From Morinoia aosen (taxonomy: Eukaryota > Arthropoda > Malacostraca > Amphipoda > Talitridae), in the NCBI GenBank assembly GCA_030386875.1, contig CM059568.1:26778120-26842119 (forward strand): a stretch of 64,000 bases of DNA, written 5' to 3'. Made by a program: the position numbers and the translations under genes. Within the stretch, counting starts at the first letter, position 1. Every line of letters starts with the position of its first letter. Below are positions 30,702 through 63,652 of the stretch, piece after piece. The notes under the pieces were generated by a model. The model saw only the letters and a program-made list of their open reading frames with translations, did no database searches and was not told where the DNA came from.

Positions 30702-30712
30702 TGGTGGCCAGT
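30702..30712 (+). other. Primer binding site of element 1
   Basis: TGGTGGCCAGT, identical to that of element 2 (46207-46217). The primer tRNA would end ACTGGCCACCA; I cannot name it. Confidence 0.75.
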
Positions 30713-31312: not shown

Positions 31313-31655
31313 TATTTTTGACGTTTTTGTACTATTGCAGTAGTGGTTTATTTCTTTTGCAGTGATATTGTTGATTTAGAACGGACGGTTATATATTCGG
31401 ATTACGGTGATTAATTGAAGAAATTGTTAACATTGTCAATTTGAACTTGGACTTGATTGTTGATTTCCATTGTTCGATTTAAAGAATTCATTTAATGAGA
31501 TTCGTTTGAGTTTAGCGTAAATTGTTTTGTTCACTGTTGTGGCGAAGAAGTTGTTGATTATACTTCGTATATTACTGTGAGACGTTTATTTTTATTGATT
31601 CTGACGCAGTACTATTTTTGGTGTTGTTCTCAATATTTTAGGTACTGTTTAATTG

Positions 31656-33028
31656 ATGTCCTCGTCGGATTCAGAGGAGGAAAAGATTCGTGTAGTAGCA
31701 ATTAGAACTAGTCGTGGCCGTGTGTCGGTTCCGCGTTTTAAAAATCAGAATAATACAATTTCAACGATGACAACGACCGCTGGTCCTAGCGTAATGACTA
31801 CGCAAACAGTAACGTTCACTTTCCCCAGTACGTCCACAGTGACGACTGCGAGCAACCCCGTACCAACAATGTTGGCGCGAGGAAGTACTATACTTTCTGG
31901 TGCCGAATTGCCCTTATTCCGCGGTCGTAAGAGAGGTCAAGATCCGAACTTTTGTGAGACGAAAACATTTCGGACTCATGTTTCCAACCTTCATGCATAC
32001 ATCAGCATGCTTCCAGATGCAAATTCTGATGGGGCTAAAAAAGAGTTGTTGGTACGTAGTGCTCATAAACAAGTCGGAGATTTCAATTCAGTGGTAACTA
32101 AGTTAGTAAATCAGGATTAATTTACTCATTTGAAGAGGTAGTGAATATACTGGACGATATTTATATATCGAAAGGCGAGAAGAGTATACATGCTCTTGCT
32201 TGCGATTTGAGTCACCTAAAATTATTGAGAAATGATAGTCTAGCAGCTCAGTTGGTAACAGCTCTTGCTAAGAAAAGAAAATTGAGTGAGCATATCCTTA
32301 CAAGCTCGGAGGTTGCTTTTCAAAGGCATCCCTTTGTCGCATCGAGTACAAATCCCAATGATTTAGCAAAATTTGCGGGAGACTTGATAGTATTTAGTTT
32401 AGCGATATCAACTTTGGCTCCGCTTTTGGATGAGAACTTTGCTAAAAAAAATTTCTTGCGACCATTCTTGAGCTCAGAAGAGCTGTTAGCTCGTTTAGTA
32501 GCTGCGGTCCGTAATCATCCGGAAAGCAGGCCAATAATGGCGGACACAAAGACCAGTGCGCAGTTCTCGCATGGAGAAACATACTTCGTGGACGCGGCAG
32601 GAAGCGACGCTTGCGAAGCGTCGGGCGAAGTTTTTTGTGCTTCTCCTTATAGTTATCAGCGTTTTCAGGGGCGCGGTCGGAGACAATTTTTCAGACCTGG
32701 AGCGAGATACTCGCGAGGTAGAGTGTGTGCCTATGTAGGCGATAGAAATCTAGGAACTCTTGAGTGTAATGAAGCTGGCGTAGAGAATTCCGGGAAACAT
32801 GTTGCGGGTCAAAATCCCTACTGTTCTCTCTGCAATAGTCCAGGTCACGTAGAAACTACCTGTCGTAGGCAAGGTGCTCAGGGCAAACCAGGTCTCTAGG
32901 GCAGAGCCTGCTACAGATGTAGACAGTACGAGCATTTTGCTCGTGAGTGTAAAATGCGCGGAAGCAGCAGGGGTAGAGGTGAGGGGCATCACGCTGAGGC
33001 CCGGGAGAGCAGTGATTTTTTAGAATAA
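31656..33028 (+). pseudogene. gag: gag of element 1, broken
   Basis: Starts at ATG 31656 (MSSSDSEEEKIRVV) and ends at TAA 33026-33028. It encodes a Gag of about 455 residues: an acidic start, a basic RGRVSVPRFK patch, a capsid-like helical region (ELLVRSAHKQVGD, EKSIHALACDL), an Arg/Gly-rich stretch, then two CCHC knuckles of form C-x2-C-x4-H-x4-C, CSLCNSPGHVETTC and CYRCRQYEHFAREC. Gag packages the element RNA in the cytoplasm. Defects: a one-base shift near 32110-32120 and a TAG at 32897-32899 between the knuckles. Confidence 0.85.
33016..33022 (+). promoter_or_regulatory. -1 frameshift slippery site at the gag end
   Basis: T TTT TTA in the gag frame (GAT TTT TTA GAA TAA), two codons before the stop. 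Slipping back one base enters the pol frame, which is open from this point. Element 2 has T TTT TTG at 48675-48681 in the same context. The same heptamer class serves -1 frameshifting in other retroelements. Confidence 0.7.
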
Positions 33029-35924
33029 CAACTGACGAAAGTGTGAGGGTTGAAGTTGAGGGGGAGTACAATAGGACAATGCCCGAGGGTCGGCCCGCAG
33101 CTCTCGTTAATCCTTATGTGGTGGTAGCAAAGCCAGATACTGTAACTAAGTCGACCGAGGTTGTTGATCCGCTTTTTGAGTGTAAGAACAAGTTTCAAAT
33201 TTTAAAAGAACAAGAACTTAGTGAGGGTGCAAGATCGGAACAACCAGCAGAGGTTTGTTTAGCAGCCACAATTATGTCAGCAGGACGGCTGAGATAGGAA
33301 GGCGGTGGATTCTTTTCCCTACGGAAATCCAAGAAGCCTACCAAAATTCTAAAAAGCAATAACAATTCTCTGAGTGCCTTAATCGATAGCGGCAGTGACA
33401 AATGCCTAATTAGTTACAATAATATAAAGAGCCTGAACGAGCAAGTTAAGCCTACAAATTTAAGTGTGTCGGGCATAAATTCTAAAAGCCAAGTCACAGG
33501 GGAAGTTGATTTATGTATCACTCTGCCTAATAATAAAAAATTAAATATTACCGCTTTGATTTTAAAAGATGGTCAATTTAATTATGATGTGATCCTAGGA
33601 AGAGACGTGCTGCAGGATTCAGTCTTGGATTTTAATGAAGGGTTCATTATTATGAACGGAGAAAAGTGCCTTTTCACGATGTGCATGGGATGCATGAGGA
33701 AAGTAAGAGAGAAGTATTCCTGAATACCATAAATAAGACAGATTGTCTTATGGCAGAAGTAGTTGCTCAGAGCATGCGAAAAAAGAAATATTGGCAGAAG
33801 CAAAGAGAAACTAGCAGCCTAGGAAATGGCGAGAGGAAAGAAGGCCCAGAGATAAAAAAATCTGTTGAGCAGCAGAGAGAGAGTCTGGGGAAGAAGGAAA
33901 AAAAGGGGTAAGCCGACGAATTGTTGTGCACTGCAGAGCAGTGGAAATAAAGTGTAACTCTCTACGAGTCGTAAATGGCTATGTGCGAAGGGCGAAACCC
34001 GGAAAATATCTGATGAAGAAAAAAGTGTTGAGCAATGGAATCTATGTGGCCGAATCATTGGTGAAAATAGACTCTGAAGGTTTTGTACCTGTTTTACTGT
34101 TGAATGTCTCTGAAGAAGAGGCCTATCTAAGTGAGAATATCCATGCTAAGTGATATAGAGGCAGTAGACGAACTTGACGTAGAGCAAGAGATATACATGA
34201 CTACTGTGCAAGAAGCTGTGAGGGAGTCAAATCTATGTGAGGTCAACGAGCTGGCAGATCCAACCAAGGTCGATAGGTGTTATGGTGGAAATTTCAATGC
34301 CATCACTGGGAATGAGCTTGCGTTGGGGGCTGATCAGACGAGGTATTGTTATCATTGTACTCAGGTTGACGAACTAGGAATTAATGTACGGAATAAAATT
34401 GTACAGAATGCATTTAGGGGCGAACGACGCCCATTAACGAGTAAGGACGTTGATTGCGATGAAAATGAAGAAAAACCATTATTAATCAAATTGCTAAATG
34501 AGTACCGTGACGTTATTACGTTGGAAGGCGAATCAATTGGTATTACTAATGTAATGAGACACAAAATAGTAGTAAAAGCAGATGCGCCGGTACAAAATCT
34601 GGTACCATACAGAATTCCGCATAAATATCGAGAAGATTTGGTGAAAGCGAATAAACAGATGCTGGATCAAGGTATCATTGAACCTTCTAGTTCCGAGTAT
34701 AACTTTCCTTTGATCATTGTAAAAAAGAAGTCGGGCGAGATTCGTCCAGTTATCGACTTCGAGCATTGAATAAAATTGTTATCAAAGAGAGCTATCCGAT
34801 ACCTAGGATAGACGAGATCCTTTACACCCTTTGGTGGAAGTAGCATTTTTTCAAGTCTTGACTTGCGTTCGGCCTTCCACCAGGTCGAATTGGAAGAAAG
34901 TAGCCGTAAATATACCGATTTCAGTATTGGTTATGATAAATTTCATTTTAAGAGGCTGCCTTTTGGTCTGTCCTCGAGTCCTTCCGTTTTTCAACGCATA
35001 ATTTCTTCTGTTCTTGCAAATATCATCGGCAAACTTTGTTTCGTGTTTCTCGATGATATATTAGTTTTTTCTAAATCCATGAACCAGCATCTGAAAGATT
35101 TAAAAAGTGTTTTTGAGAAATTACGCGAAGGCAATCTATCCCTGAAGCTTGAGAAATGCAAATTCCTTAAGAATTCTATAGAATATCTAGGTCATGTTGT
35201 ATCAGCAGACGGCATTCGTTGTAAGGAGTCACAAAAGCCTAAAAATTTCCCTGTTCCACGAAACGTGAAGGAATTGCAGAGTTTTCTGGGTGTAGCGAAC
35301 TATTTTCGAAGCCATATCCCTATGTTTGGTTCGATTTCGAATCCGCTCTATCAGTTATTACGAAAAAATGTTGAGTTTGTATGGGGGGCGAATTGTCAGG
35401 AAGCTTTTGAGAATATTTAATCTGTTTTAGCATCGGATACCTTTTTACGGCATCCGGATTTTACTAAGCCATTCCATGTTTTTACAGATGCTTCTAATTT
35501 TGGAATAGGAGCAGTGCTTTCACAGCACGGAAACGATGCGAACAAATCTATGCATCCAATAGCGTACTTCAGTAAGAGTTTAAACTCGACGCAAAAGCGC
35601 TACAGCACTACGAAGAAGGAATTCATGGCAATAGTTTGTGCTCCTAGAGCGTTTTGATATTTAATTTTAGGTTATCCAATATATGTATATACGGATCACA
35701 AACCGTTGTGTCCGTTATTCCAAAAAAGACTCCCTGACGATTCGACCATGGCGCGTTGGTGTCTAACAGTACATTCGTTTGAGCCAATTGTAAAGTATTA
35801 CCCCGGTAAACAAAATATTGTAGCAGATTGTTTGAGCAGATTACCTGAGCAATTGACTGCATCTGACCTAAATGATTGTGCTGAGCTCGGAGAGGCAGAG
35901 GTGTGTGCTGTGACTACAAGGTGA
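33020..35924 (+). pseudogene. pol: pol of element 1: protease, RT and RNase H, broken
   Basis: Protease: ALIDSGSDKCLIS with the catalytic Asp at 33385-33387 and flap-like ILGRD near 33593. RT: VKKKSGEIRPVIDF near 34720, LRSAFHQVEL near 34865, LPFGLSSSPSVFQ near 34955, catalytic FLDDIL with Asp pair at 35052-35057, then LGVANYFR. RNase H: FTDASNFGIGAVL near 35485, YSTTKKEF, YTDHKPL. The polyprotein would copy the element RNA. Defects include TAG 33295-33297, shifts near 33665, 33910-34130 and 34765-34840, and TAA 35418, TGA 35655, TGA 35922; from 34863 on the frame is otherwise single. Confidence 0.9.
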
Positions 35925-35966
35925 GGTGCAACGAACTCTGGCGATGCGCTGACGCAAGCAGACAGG

Positions 35967-37256
35967 GTGTTGCCAGGGTCGAACGTACCGAGGTTGACAG
36001 AATACATTCCTAAGCTGTCAGAAGTTTCTTGGGGACTTGATGAGTTTCGGGCTGAGCAAGAGAAGGATCTTTTTTGTTCCGAGGTCAGGGACGCTTTACT
36101 AAATTGTAATAAGTCTACGATTCCCGATTTACAAAGCTATTTAATTTTAAACAATGTGCTTTACAAACGGCGACAGATTGACTCGAGACCCAGTACTATT
36201 TTAACTGTAGTTATGCCGACGTCGCTGATGAATAGAGCAGTGCTCGGAATTCATTCTTTGTATCATACCGATTATGTACATACCTTATTCAAATTTAAGC
36301 TGCTATATTTTCATTTACTAGAAAAAACAATGATAAGGAAATTTGTTAGTATGTGTGAAGTATGTAAGATTCTGAAGGCAAATACTACTGTGCCCATTAA
36401 TATTTTAGACGCTCCTATAGCAAAAGAGCCATTTGAAATTGTGTCAATGGACTTTTTGGGACCACTTCCTTCGACGGATAAAGGGAATAAGTACATCTTA
36501 GTGATTATTGATTTGTTCACTAGATATTGTAAACTTTATGCGACCTCAGATCGGTTGGCAGATGCAGTTGTTTCATGTCTAAAAAGCTGCTTTAATACGT
36601 TCGGCTTTCCGAAAACTTTGTTGTCGGATCAAGCCCTTGAGTTCAAGTCCTTGGCAGTAAAAAATTTTGCTAAAATTCATGCAATTGCAAAGAAAGAAGT
36701 TCTCCCATGGAGTCCGCATGCTAACGCGATTGTGGAAAGAAACAATAGAAAAATCAATAACCTACTTAGGCTATACGTGAATTCCCTAGTACACACTGAA
36801 TGGGACCAGTGGTTAGAAACGGCTGAAATTGCCATAAATAATTCTTTAAATTCTACGTTGGGTGACACACCTAGTTTCATTCTTTTCAATAGGGACACTT
36901 GTCCGAACTTCCAGGCGGAGACTTTTGAAGCTATTTACAGTTACGATACCGACGTGGATCGGGTGAAATTTAGGGCTAAAGAAGCGGCTCGTGTCGTTGA
37001 AAATGTTAGGTCTGTGATTGTCAACAATACAGCTGAACGAACGATGTACCATAACATTCGACGTAAGGATAAAAATTTCACCGTAGGAGACAGAGTCCTA
37101 TTAAGGAACCATCTGAGAAAAAACAAGTTAGAATTGAATTGGCTAGGTCCTGCGAGGGTAACTAAAGTTAACAGAAACTATGTGGAATTGAAAATTGGAA
37201 ACAAAATGTATAAGAGTAACAAGAACCATGTTATTCCATTAAGTAAAATGACCTAA
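35967..37256 (+). CDS. pol: Integrase part of pol, element 1, open
   Basis: 429 open codons in the same frame as the RNase H part, separated from it only by TGA 35922-35924. An N-terminal zinc-binding segment ends MCEVCKILKA. The catalytic core has D in VSMDFLGPL, D in LLSDQALEF and E in AIVERNN, the DDE set of retroviral-type integrases. The C-terminus has a GPY/F-like module (WLGPARVTKV) and ends with a basic tail; there is no chromodomain. It inserts the element DNA into chromosomes, making 4-bp duplications as seen for element 2. Stop TAA 37254-37256. Confidence 0.9.
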   Translation: MLPGSNVPRLTEYIPKLSEVSWGLDEFRAEQEKDLFCSEVRDALLNCNKSTIPDLQSYLILNNVLYKRRQIDSRPSTILTVVMPTSLMNRAVLGIHSLYHTDYVHTLFKFKLLYFHLLEKTMIRKFVSMCEVCKILKANTTVPINILDAPIAKEPFEIVSMDFLGPLPSTDKGNKYILVIIDLFTRYCKLYATSDRLADAVVSCLKSCFNTFGFPKTLLSDQALEFKSLAVKNFAKIHAIAKKEVLPWSPHANAIVERNNRKINNLLRLYVNSLVHTEWDQWLETAEIAINNSLNSTLGDTPSFILFNRDTCPNFQAETFEAIYSYDTDVDRVKFRAKEAARVVENVRSVIVNNTAERTMYHNIRRKDKNFTVGDRVLLRNHLRKNKLELNWLGPARVTKVNRNYVELKIGNKMYKSNKNHVIPLSKMT

Positions 37257-37642
37257 AAGTTTCAAAAACAGGGTCTATAAATGTCTGCATCGTGATGCAA
37301 CTATTTATTTTTCCGCTTTATATGTGTTTAGTTTAATTTATTATTGTAATCAATGTTTGTGCATATATCTAACCTTTTCAATTTGTTTGTTTTGCACTCC
37401 AGTTTAAATTGTGTTAAGGTGATTGAAAGATGCGCTCAGTTTGCAAGGTTCATTGTACCCTCATCATTGATGCTCATTGATGCGGAGTCGGAATTTGCAA
37501 GCGGTACAGCAAGACTGCTGACTCCGGTATATTTACTGCTTACTCAGCGCTGACTCAGCGATATTTATTGTTTACGCTGTGTTTCATTAGCTGCTCGAAG
37601 CTAGGATTTTTTTGTTGCTGTATTTTTGTTTTTTTTGGGTAA

Positions 37643-37673
37643 TGCTAATCGGACTGTATCGTTCTCTTGGCAG
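37643..37673 (+). other. Splice acceptor before the small membrane-protein gene, element 1
   Basis: TGCTAATCG (branch-like), a pyrimidine-rich run and CTTGGCAG ending at 37673. Element 2 has TGCTAATCG and CCTTTTGCAG at 57546-57579. The branch motif is the same in both although the surrounding sequence has diverged. Confidence 0.55.
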
Positions 37674-37831
37674 AGCAAGGACGCGTGTGGTGCTGACGCA
37701 GCAGTTCGCGTGCCCGAGTTATCGAGTACGTCAGCTGGCCTTGACGAAGGTCACCGCAGTTGTCATTCACGGTCAAGTACTGCGTGTGCAGTCAGTGCTG
37801 ATTCATTTCCTACCGTGGTTTAACATCCATC

Positions 37832-38116
37832 ATGGGAAACCGCGTGACTACAGTTTCGGTGGACGCACTGACCAACGCTTTGGCGCAGCATCAGGGAAGA
37901 GTTTTGGAAGATTGGATCCGGGCGAATGCCCAGATCGACCTACTTCCGGATAGGGTCTCGGACCTTGCACTGATATTTCTAACCCTATTTACCTTGGGGT
38001 TGGGAGTGTCGGTGTACTACATGCGTAGAGAAGTGAGCGTGATGACTGAACGGTTACGCTCGGAGGATTTCATCCTCCGTCGCCAACAATTACGTTCACC
38101 GCATCTTGAACAATGA
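37832..38116 (+). CDS. Small myristoylated single-pass membrane protein, element 1
   Basis: 94 codons after integrase, in the position of an env gene. It starts MGNRVTTVSV, a good N-myristoylation signal (Gly2, small or polar residue at 6). Residues 11-43 are mainly helical and polar (LEDWIRANAQIDLLPDRVSD), 44-64 a single hydrophobic span ending VYYM, 65-88 basic (RREV, then RRQQLR). There is no signal peptide, glycan-rich ectodomain, Cys pairs or furin site, so it is not a usual envelope protein. Element 2 encodes a 98-residue homologue, about 38 of 90 positions identical without gaps. Probably expressed from a spliced RNA. Function unknown; a membrane anchor for assembly, a viroporin or a fusion-promoting small protein are possibilities. 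Confidence 0.75.
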   Translation: MGNRVTTVSVDALTNALAQHQGRVLEDWIRANAQIDLLPDRVSDLALIFLTLFTLGLGVSVYYMRREVSVMTERLRSEDFILRRQQLRSPHLEQ

Positions 38117-38254
38117 AGATGGGAGTGCCGTAGGAGTGAATTCTGCGGTGTTGCCCATACCCCTCAATTTGTCATTGTGGGAGGTGTTCGAGTTTTTGTG
38201 AATGGTCCTAAACGGTCGAAACCAGCTTTGAAAAGTCTGGCGACCGAAGTGTAG
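38117..38254 (+). CDS. Short basic frame ending LATEV, element 1
   Basis: Open from just after the TGA of the membrane-protein gene, in the same frame, to TAG 38252-38254, ending with VNGPKRSKPALKSLATEV. There is no ATG in frame, so it would need stop read-through or is a relic. Element 2 has a related 57-codon frame starting at an ATG that overlaps the stop and also ending LATEV. Confidence 0.4.
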   Translation, partial: RWECRRSEFCGVAHTPQFVIVGGVRVFVNGPKRSKPALKSLATEV

Positions 38255-46031: not shown

Positions 46032-46201
46032 TTTGCATGCGCACTAACTCTCGCCCCCTACCCTTAGCGCCTCAAAGGCTTTATAAGCGATAACATGTTT
46101 TCTCTGGGCTCAATCGATCGCGTACCTCGCCTGTACCACACCTGCTACGGACCAAAAAAGTGTACCCCCAAGAAGACCTCCTGCGTTTCACTGCCCGCAC
46201 A
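46032..46201 (+). repeat. 5' LTR of element 2
   Basis: 170 bp, from TTTGCATGCGC (TGTGC in the other LTR) to GCCCGCACA. GGCTTTATAAGCG near 46078-46090 is the likely TATA box. The poly(A) signal is mutated to CAAAAAAG. Confidence 0.85.
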
Positions 46202-46206
46202 TTAAG

Positions 46207-46217
46207 TGGTGGCCAGT
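46207..46217 (+). other. Primer binding site of element 2
   Basis: TGGTGGCCAGT, five bases after the LTR, identical to element 1. Confidence 0.75.
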
Positions 46218-47227: not shown

Positions 47228-48693
47228 ATGTCTGAGTCTTTCGATTCTGAGGAGTAAATTCATTCTACTACGATTAAAACAAATCGCGGCCAAGTTAGTG
47301 TGCCTAGATTTAGAACTCAGGGTGTTTCAAAAATGACTGATTCTGCAACAGTTGGGGCCAGTGGGCCGAGTACTAGTGCTACAGATAGGACGCTTTTAGC
47401 ACGTGAAATTGCCGCGAGCATGCCTAGGGCAGGAACCATCCTTTCCAATGCAGAAATCCCAATATTTAGAGGCAGGAGAAAGAAGGAGGTTCTGGAATTC
47501 CTTGAAAATAAGAGTTGGCAAACTCATGTTGACAATTTTAAGGCACACATGTTCCTTTTACCAGACGTAACGTCAGATGATAGTAAAAAGGAACTCCTCG
47601 TTAGGTCAGCCAATAAGCAAGTAGGAGATTCTAATTTAATTGTAACAAAATTAGTGAATTCTGACCTGCCATATACTTTCGAGGAAGTGATAAAAATCTT
47701 GGATGATATCTATGTGTGTAGGGGCGAGAAATCGATCCACGCGCTGGCGTGCGATCTAAATCAGTTACAGTTAGTGCGTAATGATGCGTTGGCAGCCCAG
47801 TCGATAACTGATTTCGCTAAGATACGAAAATTGTCAGAGCATCTTTTGAACTCAGCCTCAGTAGCCTGGCAGCGCCACCCGTATTATCAGGCATGTGCAG
47901 ATCAACAACAGTTGAAACGGCTCGTTGGGGACAGTATTGTTTACAGTTTAGCTGTTACGGTGTTAACGCCATTATTAGACGAATCTTTTTCAAAAAAAAT
48001 CTTCGAGTGTCAGTTCAGTACTTCAGAAGAGTTGTTGGCCCCATTGGTAGCTACAGTTAGGAGTCAATTTTTACAGTTAGGAGTCAAAAGAAAATCTTAG
48101 CGGCTCAGTATCCGATGCGGTACGATAAAGAATGCTATTTAGAAGATGTGACTGAAGGTTCAGAGGAAAACGTTGAAGTGCCGGAATCCCTTCAGGAGAG
48201 TGAAGTCTTTTACGGAAATTACGGAAATTACCGTATGGGTCGTTTCACGGGGCGTAGGACTCCCCGTCCTTGGCTAAGAAATCCTCGTGGTAAAGTGAGG
48301 GAATTTAGTGGCTATGTTGGAGAAAGGGGAATAGGTTCCCGGGAGTGTAATGCTTTGCAGGCAGAGAGCAGTTCAAATCAGGCTCCAGTGCACTTTGCAG
48401 CTAGAAAGAGAGGGTCTCCTTTCTGCAGTTCATGCAACATGGTAGGGCACTTTGATTGTAGACCTCAAAGAGACCAGAGTAAATCGAGAGGATATGCTTG
48501 GTTGTGTTTCGCTTGTGGGGGTCATCACTTTATGAGGAATTGTAGAGCATCCGAAAATGAAGTGAAAAACTACAAAGCGTATTTAAGCAGTTACAACGCA
48601 AATAGGGGTGGTAGTAGTCAATCGCGTGGTAGGCATGAGGTGCATTTTCCAGATTCCCAGCCAGATTCTCGGAATTTTTTGTCGAACGAGTAG
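47228..48693 (+). pseudogene. gag: gag of element 2, broken
   Basis: ATG 47228 (MSESFDSEE) meets TAA at 47255, then the frame continues with NRGQVSVPRFRTQ, as in element 1. The capsid-like region has ELLVRSANKQVGDSN and EKSIHALACDLNQL. A 20-bp tandem duplication of ACAGTTAGGAGTCAATTTTT at 48053 shifts the frame; downstream the frame has two knuckle-like motifs, CSSCNMVGHFDC and CFACGGHHFMRNC, both with altered spacing. Stop TAG 48691-48693 follows the slippery site. Confidence 0.85.
48675..48681 (+). promoter_or_regulatory. -1 frameshift slippery site, element 2
   Basis: T TTT TTG in the gag frame (AAT TTT TTG). The -1 frame runs open through it into pol (VERVGCAVGGTSEKE). Confidence 0.7.
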
Positions 48694-49606
48694 GATGTGC
48701 AGTGGGAGGTACTAGTGAGAAAGAGATTGAGCCCGAGAGTCAGATCAGCACTCTCGTAAATCCTAAAGCTGTGGTCGAAAAAATTCCAGATACACCTGAG
48801 ACGAGTAAGTTTGAATCATTCATTGACCCGTTGTTTAAGTGTGGAAATAGGTATGAATTATTGCAAGATAAAGAGCTTGCGGATGAGAACCAACAAAATA
48901 AGGCAGTTGAAGCTTATTTCTCCACTATAGTTCTAACAAGAAATTTTGAGAAAGAAGGCGCTGGTATAATTGTTTTTCGTAAGGCTAGAAAACCTACTAT
49001 AATTTTGAGCAGGAATGATCAGTAATTGAGCGCGCTACTAGATAGCGGCTCTGAAAAGTGCCTCATTAGTTACAAGCCAATTAAGTGCCTGAATGAGAAA
49101 TTAAAGCCTAGTTGTCTGAGCGTCAAAGGAATTAACGGTAAAAGTAATGTTAGTGGAGAAGTAGATTTAACTATCTCAATTCCTGGTACTAACAAAGTCC
49201 TTTAAGACCAGTGCTTTATCGTTAAGGATGCTAAATTCAATTACGATCTAATTTTAGGTAGAGATGAGCTACGTAATGCCGTTATAAATTTCAAAGAAGG
49301 ATCTCTCGAGTGGGAGGGTTTAACAGTGCCTTTCAAAGAAATTGAAGTTGAGCCAGCGATAAGTAGAGAAGCAGTGGTTAGGAGAATTGTAAACAGTGAC
49401 TGTTTACTTTCTGATGTGATAGTTGCCGAGAAGAGCAACAAAGGCGGTCAACGCACGTTGAAAAATAGTATCTGCAGAGAAGAAAAAAAGTCATGCTTGA
49501 GCTAGCGGCAAGGCCAAAGATAAAAAAGGATATCTCCTCTAGTATTTCATTGCACTACGGTCGATGTGCCGGGTAATTCAACGCAATTAATTTATGGTTT
49601 TGTCAT
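48682..49606 (+). pseudogene. pol: pol of element 2, protease part, broken
   Basis: Continues from the slippery site in the -1 frame. TAA at 49023 stands directly before the protease start; the catalytic motif reads LLDSGSEKCLIS with Asp at 49041-49043, and ILGRDEL follows near 49252. A second TAA lies at 49203. The region ends at a MITE, with about 0.6 kb of pol missing compared with element 1. Confidence 0.85.
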
Positions 49607-51087
49607 GGACACCGTCTGAGTAGAAAAAAAGTCCGTTATTTACGGATGGATTTGTCTGAAATTATCACAGTAGGTGTGAAATGATGCAAAGATCATTTGT
49701 TACCTGGACAAAATTTTTGTATCTGCAGTGGATTTTTTTATTTCGAAAAATACGATAAAATAGGTTTTTTTTCAAAATCTTTTTTTTTACAATTTTGAAG
49801 TTACAGAACCAGTACTTCGTTTTTAGATTGCTTATATGTCTATATAACCATAAGGGCTAGGGAATTTTGATAACTTCTTTTTGTGGATTTTGGGAATTGA
49901 AAAAAAAATATTTTTATTTTTTTTATTTTTTCCATGTCGTGTAATTTTCAAAGTAATGGATGCATCGAACATTTGTAGCCCTTATGGATACACCTTGCTA
50001 AGCCCTATCGAATGGTATGTAAACCATTCTTGTAGCTCTAAAATTATGGAAGAAGATGCATTTGAGAAACCAATTATCAAGTTTCCATAAAAACGTGTTT
50101 TTCACACAAAAAATTGTTTTTCTTCTTATCTTTTGAACTACCGGGTTTTTTCAAATGAACTCTTGAGCTTTTGTAGCTCTTTTCAAGCCCTTTCGATTTA
50201 TATAATTTACATTGCTGTAGCTTTGGAACCCTGGAAAAAAATATACATCAAAAGACAATACGTGTAATTCTTCAAAACAATCACTTTTTTATTTTTTCAT
50301 TTTTTTCGACCAAAATACGTTTTTTTAAGTCAAATCCTCTGTTTTGTAGCTCTTTTGTGCTCCGTGGCACAGCGGTTAAGGGATCGGACTTGTATGCTGG
50401 AAGTCGCGGGTTCGTTCCCAGCGCTGGCGCGGAGATTTTCCCCGTTGGGTATAAGGGAAAGCTCAAGCACAATACCCCACTCAACCCAGGTGTCGGAAAT
50501 GGGTACCGGCTTTACGGGGGAACCGTCATGGTGTCCTATATATAGGGTTAGTTATAAGACATTTGAAAAAACCAATGCTAAGATCATATGTATCAGGCTT
50601 GATTGGAAATAAAGCATCCCAAAGATGCCGATGTTAACCTTTAACCTTTAACCTTTTCAAGCCCTTTGGATTGGTGTGCTCGCCATAGCCGTAGCTATGA
50701 TACTGCAGCTGTCATCGAGCTATGAATGAATGCTGCGGTATCATAGATACGGCAGAAGAGCTAAATTCTGAAATTGTCGAAAATTATAAAAAATATTTAC
50801 TCAGCATTAGAATGTTTCGTTTGAATAATGAAAGCACTTTGAGTAGCCCATGAACAAACTATATTGCCATTGCCGCAGAGAAACACGCTTAATTGACTCC
50901 CAATAATGAGAGGGGGCAGGGTTCAAGGTCAAGCACCCCCCCCCCCATCGCTTTCCCCTCTCTGGTGGGCGTAACATTCGGAGTAGACGTAAGCAGAAAA
51001 CACCAATGAAAGCGCAAAAAATCCTCTATTAGATGCATATAAAAACAAAAATCAACACTTATCACGATTTCTACCTAGACGGTGTCT
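49607..51087 (+). mobile_element. TTAA MITE, copy 2, carrying a SINE
   Basis: Ends GGACACCGTCTGAGTAG and CTACCTAGACGGTGTCT. TTAA is kept on the right (51088-51091) but lost on the left, in line with the deletion of neighbouring pol sequence. Interior as in copies 1 and 3, with a 296-bp SINE at 50357. Confidence 0.85.
50357..50652 (+). mobile_element. tRNA-derived SINE, copy in MITE 2
   Basis: Flanked by CTTTT at 50352-50356 and 50653-50657. Pol III promoter boxes: A-like TGGCACAGCGG at 50365-50375 and B-like GGGTTCGTTCCC at 50408-50419. The body is shared with 41688-41979 and the tail is TTAACCTTTAACCTTTAAC. MITE copy 3 shows the unoccupied site near 55910-55920. Confidence 0.9.
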
Positions 51088-51091
51088 TTAA

Positions 51092-51866
51092 AACCGGGTG
51101 CGCCAGTCCTTAATATTACCCCATATAGAATACCTCACAAATATCAAGAGAAATTAGCAAAAATTACCAATGACATGCATTCACACGGAATAATTGAAGG
51201 GCAATGTCTGACTATAACTTTCCCGTAATTGTTGTAAAGAAAAAAAGCGGTGAGCTTAGACCAGTAATTGACTTCAAGTCTCTTATTAAGATTGTGTTGA
51301 AAGAATCGTATCCTATACCCAGAATCGATGAAATACTGTCGACGTTGGGAGGTAACACACTCTTTTCAAACTTGGATTTGCGTTCCGCGTTCCATCAGGT
51401 CGAATTAGATCAAGAGAGTCGGAAATTCACAGCTTTTAGTATAGGGTGTCGGAAATTCTAGTTCCGGCGCATCCCGTTTGGGTTGAGTTTGAGCCCGAGC
51501 GTGTTCCAGAAGGTGATGACCTCTGTTCTTGCGCCTATTCTAGGACAAATGCGCTTCGTCTTTCTTGACGACATTTTGGTATATTCAATGACTAAAAACC
51601 AGCATTTTTCTGACATTGGGAGTGTCCTTACGATGCTTCAGTCTGGGAATTTGTCAATAAAACTTGAAAAATGTCACTTCTTTAAAAAAGAAATTGAATA
51701 TCTGGGACATATTATTGCTGCAGATGGTATTAGGTGTAAGAACTCGGAGAAACTGCAGAACTGTAGGGCTCCCGTATAGGTGAAGGAGTTGACGCAGTTC
51801 TTGGGACTAGCAAATTATTTTAGAAATTTTTTACCTAATTTCACTGAAATTCTTTTAAGGAAAGAT
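51092..51866 (+). pseudogene. pol: pol of element 2, RT part
   Basis: VVKKKSGELRPVIDFKSL, LRSAFHQVELDQES, catalytic FVFLDDILVYS with Asp pair at 51567-51572, KLEKCHFFKKEIEYLGHI. Defects: a shift near 51200, TAG 51459, a further shift near 51480 and TAG 51777. It ends at LLRKD where the 1.7-kb element is inserted. Confidence 0.88.
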
Positions 51867-53589
51867 CTCAGGTAGCAAGAAATTATTAGGCCAATATTGG
51901 GTTGATAATTATTTATTGACCTGATATTGGAATCCTGGATTACAATAATAGGCTAATAACAAGCCGATATCGAAAAAAGATATATATATTTATGATATCA
52001 ACTTGTTATTGGGACAATGTAGTAAATAGTTTTATTTCTAATCTTGAACTAACAGTGTATATATGTATGTACGATATTCATATAAGTGGAAACTATCTCA
52101 TAATAATTAATAATCTCGCAATTTAATAAAATTTGTTAAAATAAAAATTATTATTGCCCAAAAATTGGGCTGGTATTGTACGCCAATAATATGGAGTAAT
52201 TTGTTTAAAATGTACCAATAAAGTTAATGAATAGTTATTGCAGTCATTAATGAGTGCAGATATATTTGACAGTTATCAAGAAATGTGAATACGTTACAAT
52301 AATATGTATATTCAGAATTACTGTAATCACAGGTTCACAGTTCTTGTTTTTTCAGTCGTCCTATGAGTTTCGAAGGTCTAATTTTTTCAAAAATATGCTA
52401 AAATCGTTTGTCATATGTTACTATAGCAATAAATGTCTATATATTGAATTAAGATGATATAATGTCATTTATATAGATGCTATGAATGCCTTAATTTCGT
52501 AACGAAGGTATTGAGTAGGCCTATTCCTACCATATAACCCATTTTGCATGCATCATTTTTTGAGTTAAGCGCTTTCGTGCAATTTTTTAATCACGCATAT
52601 ATATGCTGCTTAGATGAACGTATATATGCTGCTTAGTACAGGTTGCCCGACCACTGGTACGTACGTGCAACACAAAATTTGGACTACGATGCCAAAGAGG
52701 TTTGTAATCATGGATTTTAGATAAATTTTGAATGCAGTTTAATTCATAGTCTTGTAGACGTGTAGGTATGTACATCGGATAACATAGATATCAGAATTAT
52801 ATATATTTCTCGTTTTTGAACCCTTCTGAATATTGATGCGATATTAGAAATTAATTATTGAGCCAAAGTGTTGTTTAAGAAAACACCTCAATATCAAGTC
52901 AATAGTAACACACGAATTAGCTGATACTGGGTTAAAAATAAATTATTATTGGGACAATATATTCCACAAATATCCACTTGATGTCAGAAAATAGGTATTG
53001 GGCCTGTAGTACCCTACTTTAGTTACCCCTCAAACTCAGTTCTAGTCCATTTGTGTTCAGTAATACTAATATGTGTGTATGTAAAATTATCCTAGAAAAA
53101 ACTGCTAACATTTCCATAGTGTATAACCGATACCAACTGCAGGAAAAGTAGGAGTATATACATTAAGTCGCTGCTTCACTCGCCGCAAGCGGAACTTAAT
53201 TGCTAAAGCGGCAACAACTACAGGCTTTACAGGCCAATATTTTTTTAAGGATCTCCTCAATATCAAGTCCATAGTGACACATTAATTAGCTAATATTGGA
53301 TTAGTGAAATTATCATTATCGGGGCCATATGCTTTACAAATATCAACCTATCAGGAATTGAGTATTAAGCCAATGTTATTGTAGGGAACACTTCATTATC
53401 AAGTCAATATTGGCACAATAATTAGTTGATATTAGGTTGATGATAATATTGTTAATGGGACAATATATTTTTCTAATATCAACCGAATTTTCCAAAATAA
53501 GGTATAGCCCCAATGTTCATTTTGAATATCCAGTTAATATTGAGACTGTATATTGGCTCAAAATTAGGTCGATAAATTTTGCTACGTGG
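51867..53589. mobile_element. 1.7-kb element with AATATTGG-like arrays
   Basis: The ends CTCAGGTAGCAA and, at the right, TTGCTACGTGG are inverted repeats with few mismatches; GAT (or AT) appears on both sides. The pol frame resumes exactly (LLRKD / VVFDW). No transposase. Both flanks hold related units of about 130-150 bp with CAATATTGGG, AATATCAAGTCAATA and GGGACAATAT, which read like subterminal repeats. The middle (52050-52800) is AT-rich with nothing recognised. I cannot assign a superfamily. Confidence 0.65.
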
Positions 53590-55157
53590 GATGTTGTTTT
53601 TGATTGGTGCGACGAATGCCAAAAGAGTTTTAAATATATTAAATCTGCTCTGACATCTGAGATGGTTTTAAGACATCCTGACTACACGAAAGACTTTCAC
53701 ATTTTCACACATCTAATTTTGGGATTGGAGCCGTTGTGATGGAGGCTGAGGATTCAAGCAATAAAATAATGCGTCCTGTAGCTTATTTTAGTAAAAGTTT
53801 AAATTCTAGCCAGAAACGCTACAGTACAACGAAGAAGGAATTTTTTGCACTGTATTCAGCTCTTAAAGCTTTCAAATATTTAATTATTGGATATCCTATC
53901 CGCGTTTATACGGATCATCGTCCCTTGGCTCCTCTTTTTGCAAGGAAACTCCCAGAAGATAAAGTCATGGCGAGGTGGTGTATTAATGTTCATTCATTCG
54001 ACCCTATTGTCAAATATCTACCTGGTTAACAGAATGTCGTAGCTGATTACTTAAGCAGATTACCTATAAACTATGATCAATTAACAATTAAAAAACTAGA
54101 GAGCTGTAAAGCTCTGTATTCAGAGTTTGAATCAGAAGCGTGCATCGCAGAGACTCGGTCTCAAATAAAAAAATGACTGTCTAGACAGCCGGGCGGTCTC
54201 AGCGGCTCGTTGCAGAGCGACAATACCGACGCTTGCTTGACACGCAAGGAAACGCAACCGAAACTGATTGATAACGTACCGACAGAGAAAGAAATTTCTT
54301 GGACTATAAAAAATTTATTGACGAGCAAAAACAAGATCCATTTTGTGTTGAGGTTAGAGAAGCGCTACTTCATGGAAATGCGTCCACAATACCTGACTTA
54401 GAGAGTTACGTAATTTTAAAAGACGTATTGTACCGACGGCGACGGATTAATACACGACCAAGTACCATATTAACTTCAGTGGTGCCAACTTCCCTAGTGG
54501 AAAAGGCAGTTTTAGCCATGCATTCAGTGTAACATACCGATGATTTGTACACTTTATATAAATTCAAACTCAAATATTATAACCATTTGGAGAAAACGAT
54601 TGTGAGGAAATTCGCACGAAATTGTGAGGTTTGTAAACTGCTTAAAGCACGACCTTCTGTGCCCATTAATATTTTGACGGCTCCTATAGCGAAAGAACCT
54701 TTTGAAGTTGTTTCAATGGACTATCTTGGTCCTCTCAAGACTACCGATAATGGTAATAAATATAGATTGGTTATCATTGCTCTTTTTTCCAGGTATTGCG
54801 AATTATATGCGATGTCTAACCGTCGAACATACACAGTTATAGCATGTCTAGGAAATTGCTTTAGCACTTTTGGATATCCGAAAACGTTAATGTCTGACAA
54901 CGCACTTGAATTTGGATCGCAAGCAGTGAAGCAATTTGCCAACATCCACGCAATTGCGGAAAGAGAGGTTCTAGCTTTCAGTCCTCATTCGAACGCTATT
55001 GTTGAAAGAAACTATAAAAAAATTACTAATATATTAAAATTAACGTTAACTCATTACCTCAAGCGGAGTGGGATCAGTGCTTGGAGGTCGTTGAAAATGC
55101 ATTGAACAATGCACTAAATTCTACTTTGGGGGATACTCCTAGTTACGTAGTATTTAA
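53590..55157 (+). pseudogene. pol: pol of element 2, RNase H and integrase part
   Basis: RNase H: the first catalytic motif, FTDAS in element 1, is disrupted by a small deletion (reads FTH) near 53703; later motifs RYSTTKKEFFALYSALKAF and YTDHRPL are present. Integrase: CEVCKLLKA, D in VSMDYLGPL, D in MSDNALEF, E in AIVERNY. Shifts occur near 53703 and 55050, stops at 54027, 54530 and others. Ends at TTAA of MITE copy 3. Confidence 0.88.
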
Positions 55158-56344
55158 GGACACCGTCTGGGTAGGAGAAAAGTCCGTTATTTATAGATGG
55201 ATTTCTCTGAAATTTTCACAGTATGTGTGAAATGATGAAAAGATGATCATTTGTTATTTCGACAAAATTTTTGTATCTGCACTGGATTTTTTTTTTTTGA
55301 AAAATATGATAAAATAGGGTTTTTTAAAATCTATCTTCTTTTACAATTTTGAAGTTACAGAACCAGAACTTCGTTTTTAGATTGCTTATATGTCTATATA
55401 ACCATAAGGGGCTACGAATTTTGACAACTTTTTTTGTGGATCTTGGGAGTATTTTTTTTAAAATATGTAACCTTTTTTCATTTTTTTCATGTCGTTTAAT
55501 TTTCCAAATAATTGATGTATCGAAAAATGAAACGCCCTTATTGATACACCTTGCTAAGCCCTATCGAATGGTATTTAAACCATTCTTGTAGCTCTAAAAT
55601 TGTGGAAGAAGTAGCATTTGAGAAACCAATTATCAAGTTTCCAGAAAAAGGTGTTTTTTCACAAAAAAAATTGTTTTTCTTTTTATCTTTTGAATTACAG
55701 GATTTTCTACAATAAACTCTCGAGCGTTTGTAGCTCTTTTCAAGCCCTTTCGATTGGTATAATTTATATTGCTGTAGCTCTGTAACTCTGAGAAAAAATA
55801 TACAACAAAAGACAATTCATGTAATTCTTCAAAATAACCCCTTTTTTATTTTTTCATTTTTTTTTCGACCAAAATAAGTTTTTTTCAAGTCAACTCCTCT
55901 GTTTTGTAGCTCTTTTCGAGCCCTTTGGATTGGTGTGCTCGCCATAGCTGTAGCTATGATACTGCAGCTGTCATCGAGCTATGAATGAAAGCTGCGGTAT
56001 CATAGATACGGCAGAACAGCTGAATTCTGAAATTGTCAAAATCTTCTAAAAAATATTTATTCAGCGTTAGAATGATTCGTTTGAATAATGAAAACACTTA
56101 GAGTAGCTCATGAACGAACTCTATTGCCATTGCCGCAGAGAAACACGCTCAATTGACTCCCAATAATGAGGGGGGGAGGGGTCAAGGTCACGCCACCCCC
56201 ATCGCTTTCCCCCCCTGTGGTGGGCGCACTATTCGGAGTAGACGTAAATGGAAAGTACCAATGGAAGCGCAAGAAAATCCTCTATAAGATGCATATAAAA
56301 ACAGAAAATCAACACTTATCTCGATTTCTACCCAGACGGTGTCC
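55158..56344 (+). mobile_element. TTAA MITE, copy 3
   Basis: TTAA at 55154-55157 and 56345-56348; ends GGACACCGTCTGGGTAG and CTACCCAGACGGTGTCC are perfect inverted repeats. 1,187 bp, no transposase. It interrupts integrase, and the host frame is exactly restored when the MITE and one TTAA are ignored (SYVVF followed by NRDTC). Confidence 0.92.
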
Positions 56345-56718
56345 TTAACAGGGACACGTGTCCTTACTTCCAAGGTGAAAGTTTCGACACCATAGCCTAC
56401 AGTTATGATGAAGAGATAGATTTGGTTAATTTTTGAGCAAAAGAGGCGGATCGTACTGTAGAAAATATTAGGAACCTGATATTGAATAATACCACGGAAC
56501 GGAATATTTGCAGAAATATCAAGCGTAGGGATAAGAACATCATAGTCGGTGACAGAGTCCTTTTAAGGAACCACGCATAGAAGGACAAGCTTGAGCTAAC
56601 TTGGCTAGGTCCTGGTGTAGTCTTGAAAGTCAAGCGTAATTGGGTAGAAATTAGTATTGGCAACAAGGTTCACAGAAGCAATTTGAACCATGTAATATCT
56701 TCAAGAAGGGTTAAATAA
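56345..56718 (+). pseudogene. pol: pol of element 2, integrase C-terminus
   Basis: NRDTCPYFQGESFDTIAYSY, then VGDRVLLRNHA and the GPY/F-like WLGPGVVLKV, ending with a basic tail and TAA 56716-56718. Two nonsense codons (56435 and 56578) interrupt it. Confidence 0.85.
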
Positions 56719-57545
56719 TGAATAAAATAACAAGTCCATTTTTACTGTACCTACCTACGACTTTCATTTTTGACGTCGCGACGACTCGACAGTATACGAT
56801 TTGCTGTAAAGGATAATTGTATTACTCAATTTAAGCGTTTTCCTTATAGTTTAAGAATTTTTCTGTGTTGTTAGCTTTACTAACGCATTATCTGTGTAAC
56901 TTGCTTTACCACATTCATTATAATCTGTATGTACTGTTTTCAGTTGTTGTACAGCTTGTTTGCTGCGCCTATTTTAATGAGTTAGGTTAAAAGGCATGTT
57001 TATGCATCTCTTAAATGTCTCTAGAGATGTTTCATATGAATTTTTTGCAATTCTTTGTTTTTTGATTTGTGTTGTGCTGTGAACATGCAACTCGAGGCGT
57101 GCATTCGCTTGGACGTTGTTGCTGAATTAACAAATTAAATGGTGAGCGAATTCCTCGGTTGCTAAATGCAATCGCTGACTTTGTAGCTCATCTCGTGAGA
57201 CGGTCGATCTTGACGCTACAGCGAAATTAAAATTTTTCTTTTCATTTTTGATTTGAATGTTTTTATCATCAGCACAAATTAATTAAATTTTTACAGCGAA
57301 TGGAAACTCCTCGAACGGAAGTCAAAATGCAGCTCTTTCATAAATAGCTAATCTTGCCGACGAGCAACACTTGTTAATATCTTGTATAATTTCCTTGGAT
57401 AAAAATTTCCTTATATTTTTATTAACTGTTCATCATCAAGCTGCAGTTCTCTTCGAGCAAGACTTTGTGCTTGTGTTTCCAATTAGTATATTATTTAGGT
57501 TTGTTGAAATTGTGTTTATTTTATTTTTAAATTTTTGTTTGGTCA
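56719..57545 (+). other. Spacer between integrase and the small gene
   Basis: T-rich sequence with no gene; the equivalent of 37257-37642 in element 1. It precedes the splice acceptor. Confidence 0.5.
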
Positions 57546-57579
57546 TGCTAATCGTCTCTGTGTTTTGTTCCTTTTGCAG
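57546..57579 (+). other. Splice acceptor before the small membrane-protein gene, element 2
   Basis: TGCTAATCG, a T-rich tract and CCTTTTGCAG ending at 57579, eight bases before the ATG. Confidence 0.6.
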
Positions 57580-57586
57580 GATCAAG

Positions 57587-57883
57587 ATGGGCAACGCTGT
57601 GTCAACCGTGGATGTGTACACGCTTGTGTCAGCGTTGTCAAAACACAAAAGCGAAATCAACCAGGACTGGTTGGAAGCAAACTCAAGGCTGGATTTACTA
57701 CCGGACCAGGTGTCGGATATTATCGTAATGATGGTAATCATGGCGATGATGGGGTTAATCGCCCAGATGTATTTCGTCAAAAAGAACGTGGAAGTTTTAG
57801 CCGAACGTAGCTGGGCAGGGGATTTTCAGCTCCGTCGGAGCACGCTGAGGCCGCCAAAGTACAACAACACCGGGGAAGTGTAA
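57587..57883 (+). CDS. Small myristoylated single-pass membrane protein, element 2
   Basis: 98 codons from the ATG just after the acceptor (upstream in-frame codons belong to the intron). Starts MGNAVSTVDV, a myristoylation signal with Ser6. The middle has DWLEANSRLDLLPDQVSD, nearly as in element 1. Residues 45-64 form one hydrophobic span rich in Met, then KKNVEV and a basic QLRRSTLRPPK tail. The frame is intact even though gag and pol of the same element are heavily broken, which may be chance given its short length. The stop TAA overlaps the ATG of the next short frame (TAATG). Confidence 0.75.
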   Translation: MGNAVSTVDVYTLVSALSKHKSEINQDWLEANSRLDLLPDQVSDIIVMMVIMAMMGLIAQMYFVKKNVEVLAERSWAGDFQLRRSTLRPPKYNNTGEV

Positions 57884-58053
57884 TGAACATAACAGTCGGC
57901 GGTGATGTAGGGGTTTATGTGCCTGGTTCAAGGCGGGCTAGGCGCTCGCAACGAACAGGACGCACTAGACGCCCATTTTCCCCAACAGATATGCAGCCGA
58001 TGCCTTTGAGTACTTGCTCCTGCGCCTTCAGCAATTTGGCTACGGAAGTGTAA
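57883..58053 (+). CDS. Short basic frame ending LATEV, element 2
   Basis: An ATG overlapping the previous stop opens about 56 codons in the -1 frame: MNITVGGDVGVYVPGSRRAR, then an Arg-rich RTGRTRRPFSP and an end CAFSNLATEV. TAATG junctions can support re-initiation. Element 1 has a frame with the same end. Arg-rich, possibly nucleic-acid binding or nuclear; no family recognised. Confidence 0.45.
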   Translation: MNITVGGDVGVYVPGSRRARRSQRTGRTRRPFSPTDMQPMPLSTCSCAFSNLATEV

Positions 58054-59745
58054 TTTTCCGTTTTGTTAATCCATTTTGTTAATCAAGTTAACGTAATCGT
58101 AGAAATTATAATCTGTGTTCTTGAGGGCAAGCCAAGTATAATCGATATGAGTACAACATGAGCCTACGGCATTTTTATTTCATTTTATTTACTCCGTCCT
58201 TGCTCGCTGGCAGTGTGAGAAAACCCTTCATATGTTTTTAGCTATAACGTAGTCTTGGGTTTTGGTTATATTATAGTCTACGGAGACGCAGGCGATGTTT
58301 TGCAATGATTCCCTACCATCATTGGTTTCTTTACCGTTCCGTAAAAATTTAAAGGATCTTTGATTTATATTTGCTCTGATGGCCGTTAGTTTCATTAAAA
58401 TTAAATATTTAACATCGCTCACCGTTCGTAGGCCACGAGATGATAATTTCGATTATTGTTGAATTTCCGTAATTGCTCTGTCGAGGAAATCGTGTTTTAC
58501 TTTGCAGTAAGTCTATCTAACCGTTACTATTATCCTGTAATCTTATGCTTTTCATTTATAATTTGGTGTTTATGCGCAATTTCACAAACGTCAAGCAACG
58601 ATGTGCAGACCGGAAAATTAGTCTCTGTAAGGATGTTCACTATGCCACGAATTCGATTTTAACCAAGAAATTGACAGGTGTTTCCTTTGTTTGTAATTCA
58701 AAAGAATTTTTGCGAGGAGTGAGTTGCCTTTTGCGATGGGGGGTGAAATTATTTTAGGAATTATTATTTTTTTTCCTATACCATTGGTGTTTATTGAAAG
58801 GAATATTTGGCGTTTCTTTTACCTACCTATATCGTTGTGCTGACTTTGTGGTAGTATGGTAAGTTTGATGCTAGTGCTAACCGGTGGTAGCAGCTAGTGC
58901 TTTATTTCTTTTGCTAGTGCTTTATTTCTTTTCAATTTGTTCGTTAATTTTTAGTAATGCCTAATAATCGTTTTTCTTTGCGCTTTTTGCGTAACCATGG
59001 TTGTAAGTTTGTAAAACCGGGAGAGTTAAAAACTTGAAATGAGTTTTTTTCGCCATCCACTGCGTATAATTGTGGTAATAACATTTTCCACGTTTCGCAA
59101 TATTTTGTGGTTTCTAAATTTTTCAATGCAATTTTTACTATGTTATTAAATCATTTGTGGATTTTTCGTCTACTAGCCGTCAAAAATTCAACGTAAAAAA
59201 AGTTATGGCGAATGCAGGTCGTCAATGTGTTGATGAAAATTTGCGTATTATTATTATTTTTGTTTTTTGAGTTTTAATTTCTATGGTTGTTCCTGATTGG
59301 CGTTTTATTTTTTTTAGCGTTAACTAATACTACTCTGTGTTGGTTTCCGGTTCAATCCGGGAGGTAAAATTATATATTAATCTCTTGGTGAGTTATTACT
59401 AACGTTTTTAAAACCATGTGTCTACTTGCGCTGTTTGTCTATTAGGAACCATGTATCGTGTAATGGTGTTTTACCGGGTAGTTTACCTTTCCATTTTGAA
59501 TAACAGGGCATTTTTGTTCGCTTCAGCCGCCCTCGTTCTTCTTGCTTGTGTTGCCGAGTATCACTGATAATTCTTGAGCAGGGTAACTTTACTAATTTTA
59601 TTCAAATTTGATTGATTTGAGTTTAACACGCATGAAGGCGGAGACGAATTTGTTTTTGGTAATTTGCTTGAGGTTAATATTATTTTTTCCTATCGCCCGA
59701 GTATTATTTTTTTAATTTGTTATTTGAGTACCTAAATTGTTGGTG
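58054..59745 (+). other. Long 3' region of element 2
   Basis: T-rich on the plus strand, with small frames of no recognisable content. CTAGTGCTTTATTTCTTTT is repeated in tandem near 58894-58930. Confidence 0.5.
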
Positions 59746-59756: not shown

Positions 59757-59939
59757 TGTGCATGCGCGCTTCCTCTCGCCCCCTACCCTGAGCGCCTCAT
59801 AGGCTTTATAAGCGATAAGCATGTTTTGTCTGGGCTCAATCGATTGCGTACCTCGCAATCGTACCTCTGTACCGCACCTGCGGCGGACCAATAAAGTGAA
59901 CCCCCCCAAGAAGACCTCCTGCGTTTCACTGCCCGCACA
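59757..59939 (+). repeat. 3' LTR of element 2
   Basis: 183 bp, TGTGCATGCG to GCCCGCACA. It differs from the 5' LTR by a 13-bp insertion near 59855 and scattered changes. TATA-like GGCTTTATAAGCG and poly(A) signal AATAAA at 59890-59895. Confidence 0.88.
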
Positions 59940-62181: not shown

Positions 62182-63310
62182 GTGAGTGCACCCATCAGTT
62201 GTTGACGATTGTTGTTCATTTCAGAAGATAAAATTACTCATTTAGCTTTTCAACAATTTGAATTAACAGCAGTGTTCAAGCTACGCAGCGATATTATGCT
62301 ATGCAGTAGAATAGCTGCAAAAGTAGTAATACTAGTATCGGAAAGAGAACCTGCCAAAGAAGTGAAATTTATATTTATTGAATTTTTTTATATTTTTGTG
62401 GAAGGGCTACTACGAAGTGGCTACTACGTGGTTGTTATTAATTGAAAATTGATTGCATTTGTGTTACTGATGTGTCGATGTTCAAAATAGAACTTAAAAA
62501 TTTTTTGATAAGTCTTCCACCTGACGGTATCCATGTCACAATGCCAAATTCTAAAAAAAAACGAGTCCATTTTTCTAATCACTTCAATTAAATGATCAAT
62601 TGAGCGATTCTTAAAACATTTCCGAGAATATTTTTTGTTTATGGGAAATATAATATTATTTCTGATGACTCATCAGATTCATTGACAAATTGACTGGTAA
62701 ATTCATTCATTAAAACCAATTCGAACTTTCATAGCTCCCGATCTTTCCATTTCATTCAGTTGTGTGTGTTGGTGTCTGGACTCTATAGGTTCTGTGTGCA
62801 ACAACGAGGAAGAGTAGATCTTTGTGAATTAACTATATTGATCTTTTCAATATTTTACGCGTCATTTAATACAAATGATGTTTCGAAGAATTAGTAAATT
62901 AGGCGCTACGATATTAACTTTTGTGCTTGACAGCATTGGAGTATATTTTTTTAGTTTAAACGTCAAAAATGAACGGCTGTAGAAGTCAGTATTTCATGCT
63001 TCCGGCCTATTCTCTAATTTTCTGACATCTATTTTGTGCTTGTTGAACTAAATGTAATTTTAAGTTGAACAAGAACAATCATTGTTAGAAGTTAATTTTA
63101 ACTGAACGCAATTCAACAAAAACAAAAAACGCAATGAGAGCGACGACGAGACATAGCAGGACGGCAGCAGCTCGCATAACCAAGGTAGTGCAGAGCCGGC
63201 AACTTGAGGTCTCTGAACAGGGTCACAGGAGTTCAGGTACGAGCCCGCTACTATCAGAGCAGAAAGGTCAACAGTAGAAACTGCATCAATGGCCGCAGCG
63301 GTAGAGACTG
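62182..63310. other. End of the right arm and its flank
   Basis: To about 63035 the sequence mirrors 10424-11280. Beyond that is unique sequence leading into the minisatellite. Nothing coding recognised. Confidence 0.45.
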
Positions 63311-63652
63311 TTGTAGTAGCAGTAGTACACGCGGCAGCAGTAGCAGTAGTACACGCGGCAGCAGTAGCAGTAGTACACGCGGCAGCAGTAGCAGTAGTAC
63401 ACGCGGCAGCAGTAGCAGTAGTACACGCGGCAGCAGTAGCAGTAGTACACGCGGCAGAAGTAGCAGTAGTACACGCGGCAGCAGTAGCAGTAGTACACGC
63501 GGCAGCAGTAGCAGTAGTACACGCGGCAGCAGTAGCAGTAGTACACGCGGCAGCAGTAGCAGTAGTACACGCGGCAGCAGTAGCAGTAGTACACGCGGCA
63601 GCAGTAGCAGTAGTACACGCGGCAGAAGTAGCAGTAGTACACGCGGCAGCAG
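63311..63652. repeat. 24-bp minisatellite, 14 units
   Basis: Unit AGCAGTAGCAGTAGTACACG plus CGGC, repeated 14 times. Because 24 is divisible by three, several frames stay open through it (Ser-rich STRGSSSS, Ala/Val-rich, and a Tyr/Cys frame on the minus strand). No start context or flanking domain supports translation. Units 7 and 14 share an AGAAG variant. Confidence 0.9.

Follow-up and report, generated by a model that had tools for sequence, protein, structure and literature searches.

Two Ty3/Gypsy-type elements of an amphipod carry a probable sORF2/FAST-like membrane protein gene behind pol

Drosophila retrotransposons of the MDG1 group encode sORF2, a small membrane protein that was found together with capsids in somatic protrusions entering the oocyte (Voichek et al. 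2025, PMC11952523). The protein was likened to the FAST proteins of reoviruses, and a transfer of capsids from cell to cell was proposed. In the same study, a screen covering some 8,500 consensus sequences from arthropods yielded 105 hits in 29 organisms, the hits ranging over flies, mosquitoes, butterflies, moths and beetles, and in 7 of 22 Lepidoptera consensus sequences the ORF was located downstream of pol. Sequence matches are usually absent for proteins of this kind, and a sequence search cannot link the retrotransposon proteins to the reovirus FAST proteins. In the Drosophila transcripts, sORF2 precedes gag and evidence of splicing is absent. According to the limitations passage of the article, it has yet to be demonstrated in Drosophila that sORF2 fuses cultured cells or is genetically required. 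The term 'Crustacea' is absent from the main text of PMC11952523, and no crustacean case of a sORF2/FAST-like protein was found in the literature that we searched by title and abstract opening. A preliminary description of the amphipod locus presented below regarded its small membrane protein as undescribed. This was wrong for the protein kind, which has been described in the Drosophila MDG1 group and in other insects; the parallel that it drew with the FAST architecture fits the sequence and is already in print for insect retrotransposons (PMC11952523). What is new here is the amphipod case, the position of the ORFs behind pol with a shared acceptor-like motif, and a second small frame, ending in LATEV, in a GC-rich block. 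The motif and the second frame are also additions to the preliminary description.

The locus lies in a 64-kb stretch of DNA (hereafter the window), the plus strand of which contains two elements, A and B, that are related but distinct and both dead. Element B has a 5' LTR at 46032..46201 and a 3' LTR at 59757..59939 (ends set by eye; 86% identity within the pair), the latter directly preceded by a purine tract, and its broken gag-pol (47228..56697) is broken up by other repeats. Element A extends from before 30702 to beyond 38254, and its broken gag-pol (31653..37256) includes protease at 33298, reverse transcriptase at 34812, RNase H at 35658 and integrase at 35925. Both had been taken for LTR elements. 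For B this is borne out by the LTR pair; for A, LTRs were looked for and not found, and its assignment was made because it has pieces of gag, protease, reverse transcriptase, RNase H and integrase, and has in common with B a word resembling a primer site. This word, TGGTGGCCAG, is found at 46207-46216, just 3' of the 5' LTR, in B and at the corresponding position, 30702-30711, in A, and it is likely to be the tRNA primer site of both elements. The Pfam order in element A is RVP, RVT_1, RT_RNaseH (22.6 bits, under the cutoff of 24.8) and rve, and this order of protease, reverse transcriptase, RNase H and integrase is that of Ty3/Gypsy (Metaviridae) elements.

The two elements are 68% identical over 170 amino acids of integrase and 60% identical over 136 amino acids of gag. 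Element A has five stops in the pol frame, two in the frame of the protease stretch and, by hand count, at least 4 frame changes; element B has 11 stops and 8 frame changes across 1413 aligned codons, a count that takes overlapping pieces twice and may also include the natural shift between gag and pol. A protein search with the integrase returned 8 proteins, one of them from a plant and the best 59% identical, and a search of viral contigs with the integrase returned 1 stretch that was not confirmed. No env was detected: between the ORF of element B and its 3' LTR, the only plus-strand frames of at least 75 codons are the one that holds LATEV and 58521-58754.

Some further features of the window were recorded. 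Repeat copies at 49607-51021 and 55158-56276 are inserted in element B, their aligned pieces being 76-92% alike, and inverted relatives of this repeat lie near 14093-15268. The leader of element A has an ATG frame (30851-31075) that matches nothing in Pfam and lacks a clear counterpart in the leader of B; a conserved leader ORF like sORF1 was rejected upon tblastx between the two leaders (best E=0.15). A fragment of a LINE reverse transcriptase, which looks CR1-like by eye, is located at 40863-41732. Searched against 5.8 billion proteins, with scoring of the 7991 candidates that shared most words, it gave 1417 matches at E<=1e-30; among the best 120 of these, 52 (hand count) are from Trinorchestia longiramus, the sole species named, at 64-83% identity, and the top match from this species is 73% identical over 95% of the query. 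As this genus belongs to the amphipods (Malacostraca), the one LINE family points to an amphipod host. A minisatellite with a 24-bp unit (63200-63724) has several open frames, with Ser/Thr/Arg/Gly repeats on the plus strand. Rfam and tRNA scans of the whole window were empty.

Behind pol, element B has a small plus-strand ORF of 98 amino acids (57587..57883), and element A has a homologous one of 94 amino acids (37832..38116). The frames of 94-98 codons that had been reported after integrase are therefore present, and a recount confirmed 38 gapless identities within their first 90 positions. BLASTP aligned the two proteins without gaps (identity 38/91, positives 63/91, E = 5e-29), and their ungapped BLOSUM62 score of 208 compares with a mean of -74 (sd 19, maximum 2) for 20,000 shuffles. 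Over 91 codons, the first, second and third positions show 42, 66 and 27 identities, respectively. Third positions are thus at chance while second positions were kept, which is the pattern of a selected protein after silent saturation. Indeed, pN is 0.41 and pS 0.84, as compared with 0.73 and 0.75 for randomly paired codons: the silent sites of the pair are saturated and the protein-changing sites are not. Among the six frames, conservation is highest in the sense frame (38/91). The preference for this frame is evident without being extreme, since one antisense frame reaches 31/90. Third-position GC is 0.56 in ORF A and 0.66 in ORF B, and 0.34-0.43 in eight gag-pol pieces. The intact state of both ORFs in dead elements is no proof of anything, because the chance that both would stay intact at the local break rate is 0.16, a figure for which ten breaks, counted by hand, were used for element A. 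With this probability, domestication is superfluous as an explanation of two intact ORFs.

Both proteins begin with MGNxx(S/T), namely MGNAVS and MGNRVT, which matches the N-myristoylation motif MGxxxS/T, and both have a single hydrophobic span. The 19-residue Kyte-Doolittle maximum is at 45-63 (1.97 in A, 2.25 in B) and a second span is absent, so that the reported Met-Gly-Asn start and one span hold for both. There are no Cys residues, and residues 45-63 are the sole hydrophobic stretch; this agrees with the earlier remark that the ORFs occupy the position of env but have neither a signal peptide nor a Cys-rich ectodomain. Both proteins thus differ from an Env, which is a large glycoprotein with these two features. 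The predicted ectodomain before the span has about 43 residues in both. Tyr62 is at the span end in both proteins, with Tyr63 in addition in A, and a basic pair, KK or RR, stands next to this end of the span. The basic tail of the preliminary description turned out to be weaker than claimed: K/R exceed D/E, but at 7 versus 5 in A and 7 versus 4 in B, and the 15 residues past residue 63, where the published set has a polybasic region, include 4 K/R and 3 D/E in A, and 3 K/R and 2 D/E in B. As to the amphipathic motifs that flank the span in the published set, the uncalibrated 18-residue moments for A and B are 0.53 and 0.33 in the ectodomain and 0.29 and 0.32 in the endodomain. AlphaFold2 predicted one helix at 10-86 for ORF B from a two-row alignment (mean pLDDT 75.7, pTM 0.34), and helices at 10-33 and 39-88 for ORF A from the single sequence (mean pLDDT 77.7, pTM 0.49).

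We implemented the filter published for sORF2/FAST-like proteins by requiring a length of 63-107 amino acids, the motif MGxxx(S/T) and a hydrophobicity above 1.6 in some 19-residue window. On the two strands of the window, ORF A and ORF B passed it and no other ORF did, whereas 60 simulated first-order Markov windows had a mean of 0.033 passing ORFs and a maximum of 1. On this result and on the conservation between A and B, we reject a chance ORF. Searches for relatives gave no significant match. Pfam returned only matches below cutoff (E 0.11-0.16), and the PDB none, apart from FtsX in a profile search (E=0.91). A two-row profile run against 5.8 billion proteins gave 19 candidates, none at E<=0.01. 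Among viral contigs, 47 stretches fitted the pattern and none was confirmed, and a second viral-contig search returned 0.

Upstream of each ORF there is an acceptor-like site, consisting of the branch-point-like word ATGCTAATCG, a pyrimidine tract and CAG. It is located on the plus strand at 57545..57579 in element B, where the first exon base would be 57580, and at 37642..37673 in element A, where it would be 37674. The 10-base word occurs in the window at 37642 and 57545 only and is absent from the other strand. When the two sites are aligned at the AG, 20 of the last 40 bases agree, which was reached by 30 of 10,000 shuffles. With a scoring table for acceptor sites, the site of element B, 7 nt 5' of the ATG, has the top score of 3571 plus-strand AGs; that of element A has the top score between pol and the ORF and rank 54/3571 in the window. 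The latter is 158 nt 5' of the ORF ATG, and the GC-rich stretch that separates them (37674..37831) holds no ATG, with 2.3 expected. Elements A and B share little DNA between pol and the ORF. The best DNA match of the 3' regions (37621-37651 against 57522-57554, 82%, E 0.004) runs into the acceptor-like motif, but is partly a T-run, and a second pair of T-runs as well as an 18-nt pair (E=0.015) are also present. A shared splice donor was not assignable, each leader having several middling candidates. GC rises between pol and the ORF, from 0.37 to 0.54 in A and from 0.34 to 0.49 in B, and drops past the second frame to 0.32 and 0.34, respectively. Since both ORFs are located behind pol and have a common acceptor-like motif, they are likely to be expressed from a spliced RNA, as is the case for retroviral env.

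The second frame of element B (57883..58053, plus strand) encodes 56 Arg-rich residues ending in LATEV, and its ATG overlaps the stop of the first ORF. Its counterpart in element A (38117..38254, plus strand) has 45 open codons without an ATG and also ends in LATEV. A C-terminally anchored alignment of the two gave a score of 49.8; the 5000 shuffles averaged 16.9 (sd 7.1) and none of them reached it, but both the choice of the frame and the scoring were made after inspection. The plain local alignment is weaker, its score being reached by 50 of 5000 shuffles, and tblastx found the last 10 codons only (E 3.4). The second frame may be a separate protein or a tail extension.

On balance, we consider it probable that the ORF belongs to an env-less Ty3/Gypsy-type element and encodes a small membrane protein of the sORF2/FAST-like kind, which by analogy would act as proposed for sORF2. 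Judged by its sequence features, membership of this set is good except for the longer ectodomain and the unclear basic patch. Splicing would skip gag-pol, upon which the ATG of the ORF would become an early one. The protein would then reside in the plasma membrane with its N terminus outside and its C terminus inside, gather Gag particles there, and draw the membranes of touching cells together so that capsids could pass from somatic to germ cells. In this manner, it would serve in place of Env, with no envelope involved. This reading is favoured by the conservation, by the filter result (2 against 0.033), by the fit in length, motif, span and Tyr, by the downstream position that 7 of 22 Lepidoptera sequences share, by the helical models, by the absence of env from element B, and by the acceptor motif and the GC-rich block present in both elements. 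Against it count the restriction to two copies, both in dead elements, the ectodomain of about 43 rather than 30 residues, the small basic patch and the lack of a sequence match, as well as the antisense frame at 31/90, the rank of the A site, the unassignable donor and the state of the evidence on fusion and genetic need in Drosophila (PMC11952523).

The myristoyl motif, the span and the basic pair would also suit a matrix-like anchor, that is a myristoylated one-span protein that tethers Gag to the plasma membrane during assembly or budding without itself fusing membranes. By eye, the gag frames of A and B lack a Met-Gly start, and in Drosophila sORF2 was seen with capsids at membranes (PMC11952523), both of which speak for such an anchor. 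However, the likeness of the ORFs to the sORF2 set is not limited to membrane binding but covers several features. We regard the anchor as unlikely, and it is compatible with the sORF2/FAST-like reading rather than opposed to it.

Retroviruses have small one-span accessory proteins of the size of this ORF, and Vpu and Nef are the comparison for a different accessory role, as an ion channel or in down-regulating a surface protein of the host. The basic frame that follows the ORF does suggest an accessory region, but a specific motif was not found and the sORF2 comparison explains more features, so that we hold this role to be rather improbable. Least credible is a remnant, i.e. a captured exon of host or env origin that has fallen out of use and is intact by luck: although both elements are dead, the intactness probability is 0.16 and the GC of the ORFs differs from that of gag-pol, selection between two lineages and the common acceptor motif show that the ORFs were in use when the elements were still active.

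If the sORF2/FAST-like reading is true, Env-free cell-to-cell transfer by small FAST-like proteins is not confined to insects but extends to the Malacostraca, and splicing can serve for its expression from the position of env. The age of the route would then become testable. The acceptor motif, the MGN one-span ORF and the LATEV frame provide a search template for other crustaceans. More tentatively, amphipod Ty3/Gypsy elements might express an Env-free transmission protein in the manner of env, together with a second, Arg-rich protein, from a spliced GC-rich 3' exon. The second protein would be reached by the stop-start overlap and is possibly an RNA-export or RNA-binding partner, which is what an element with splicing would need. 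In that case, either the age of the FAST-like route or its transfer would account for its presence outside insects, and spliced expression of the retroviral type would have been added to it.

The env of errantiviruses such as gypsy is made from a spliced RNA, and the present ORFs share its position after pol. In contrast to retroviral and errantiviral Env proteins, they encode 94-98 residues without Cys and without an N-terminal hydrophobic stretch. The CERV protein of the C. elegans element Cer1 is likewise an extra protein of an LTR element that is made from a spliced mRNA, but it is a nuclear protein of 517 amino acids, and the word 'transmembrane' is absent from the text of that report (PMC10309623). 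With the reovirus FAST proteins, the ORFs have in common the ectodomain, the span, the basic residues and, for some of them, the N-myristoyl motif; reoviruses are unrelated, and the likeness is one of layout. As for the sORF2/FAST-like set (412, mdg1, Stalker), the host here is an amphipod, whereas insects are named in the published text; the ectodomain of about 43 residues exceeds the 30 or so there, which may be a filter rather than a requirement; the basic patch is small; and a second small frame lies behind the ORF. Unlike Drosophila sORF2, which precedes gag, the ORF follows pol, as in the 7 of 22 Lepidoptera sequences, and is preceded by an acceptor-like motif. The length range, MGxxxS/T, the one predicted span, the Tyr just past it, the same strand as gag-pol and a same-family element without env are all the same, and the predicted helices of the A and B ORFs are similar in kind to the one that has been reported for the sORF2 of element 412 (PMC11952523).
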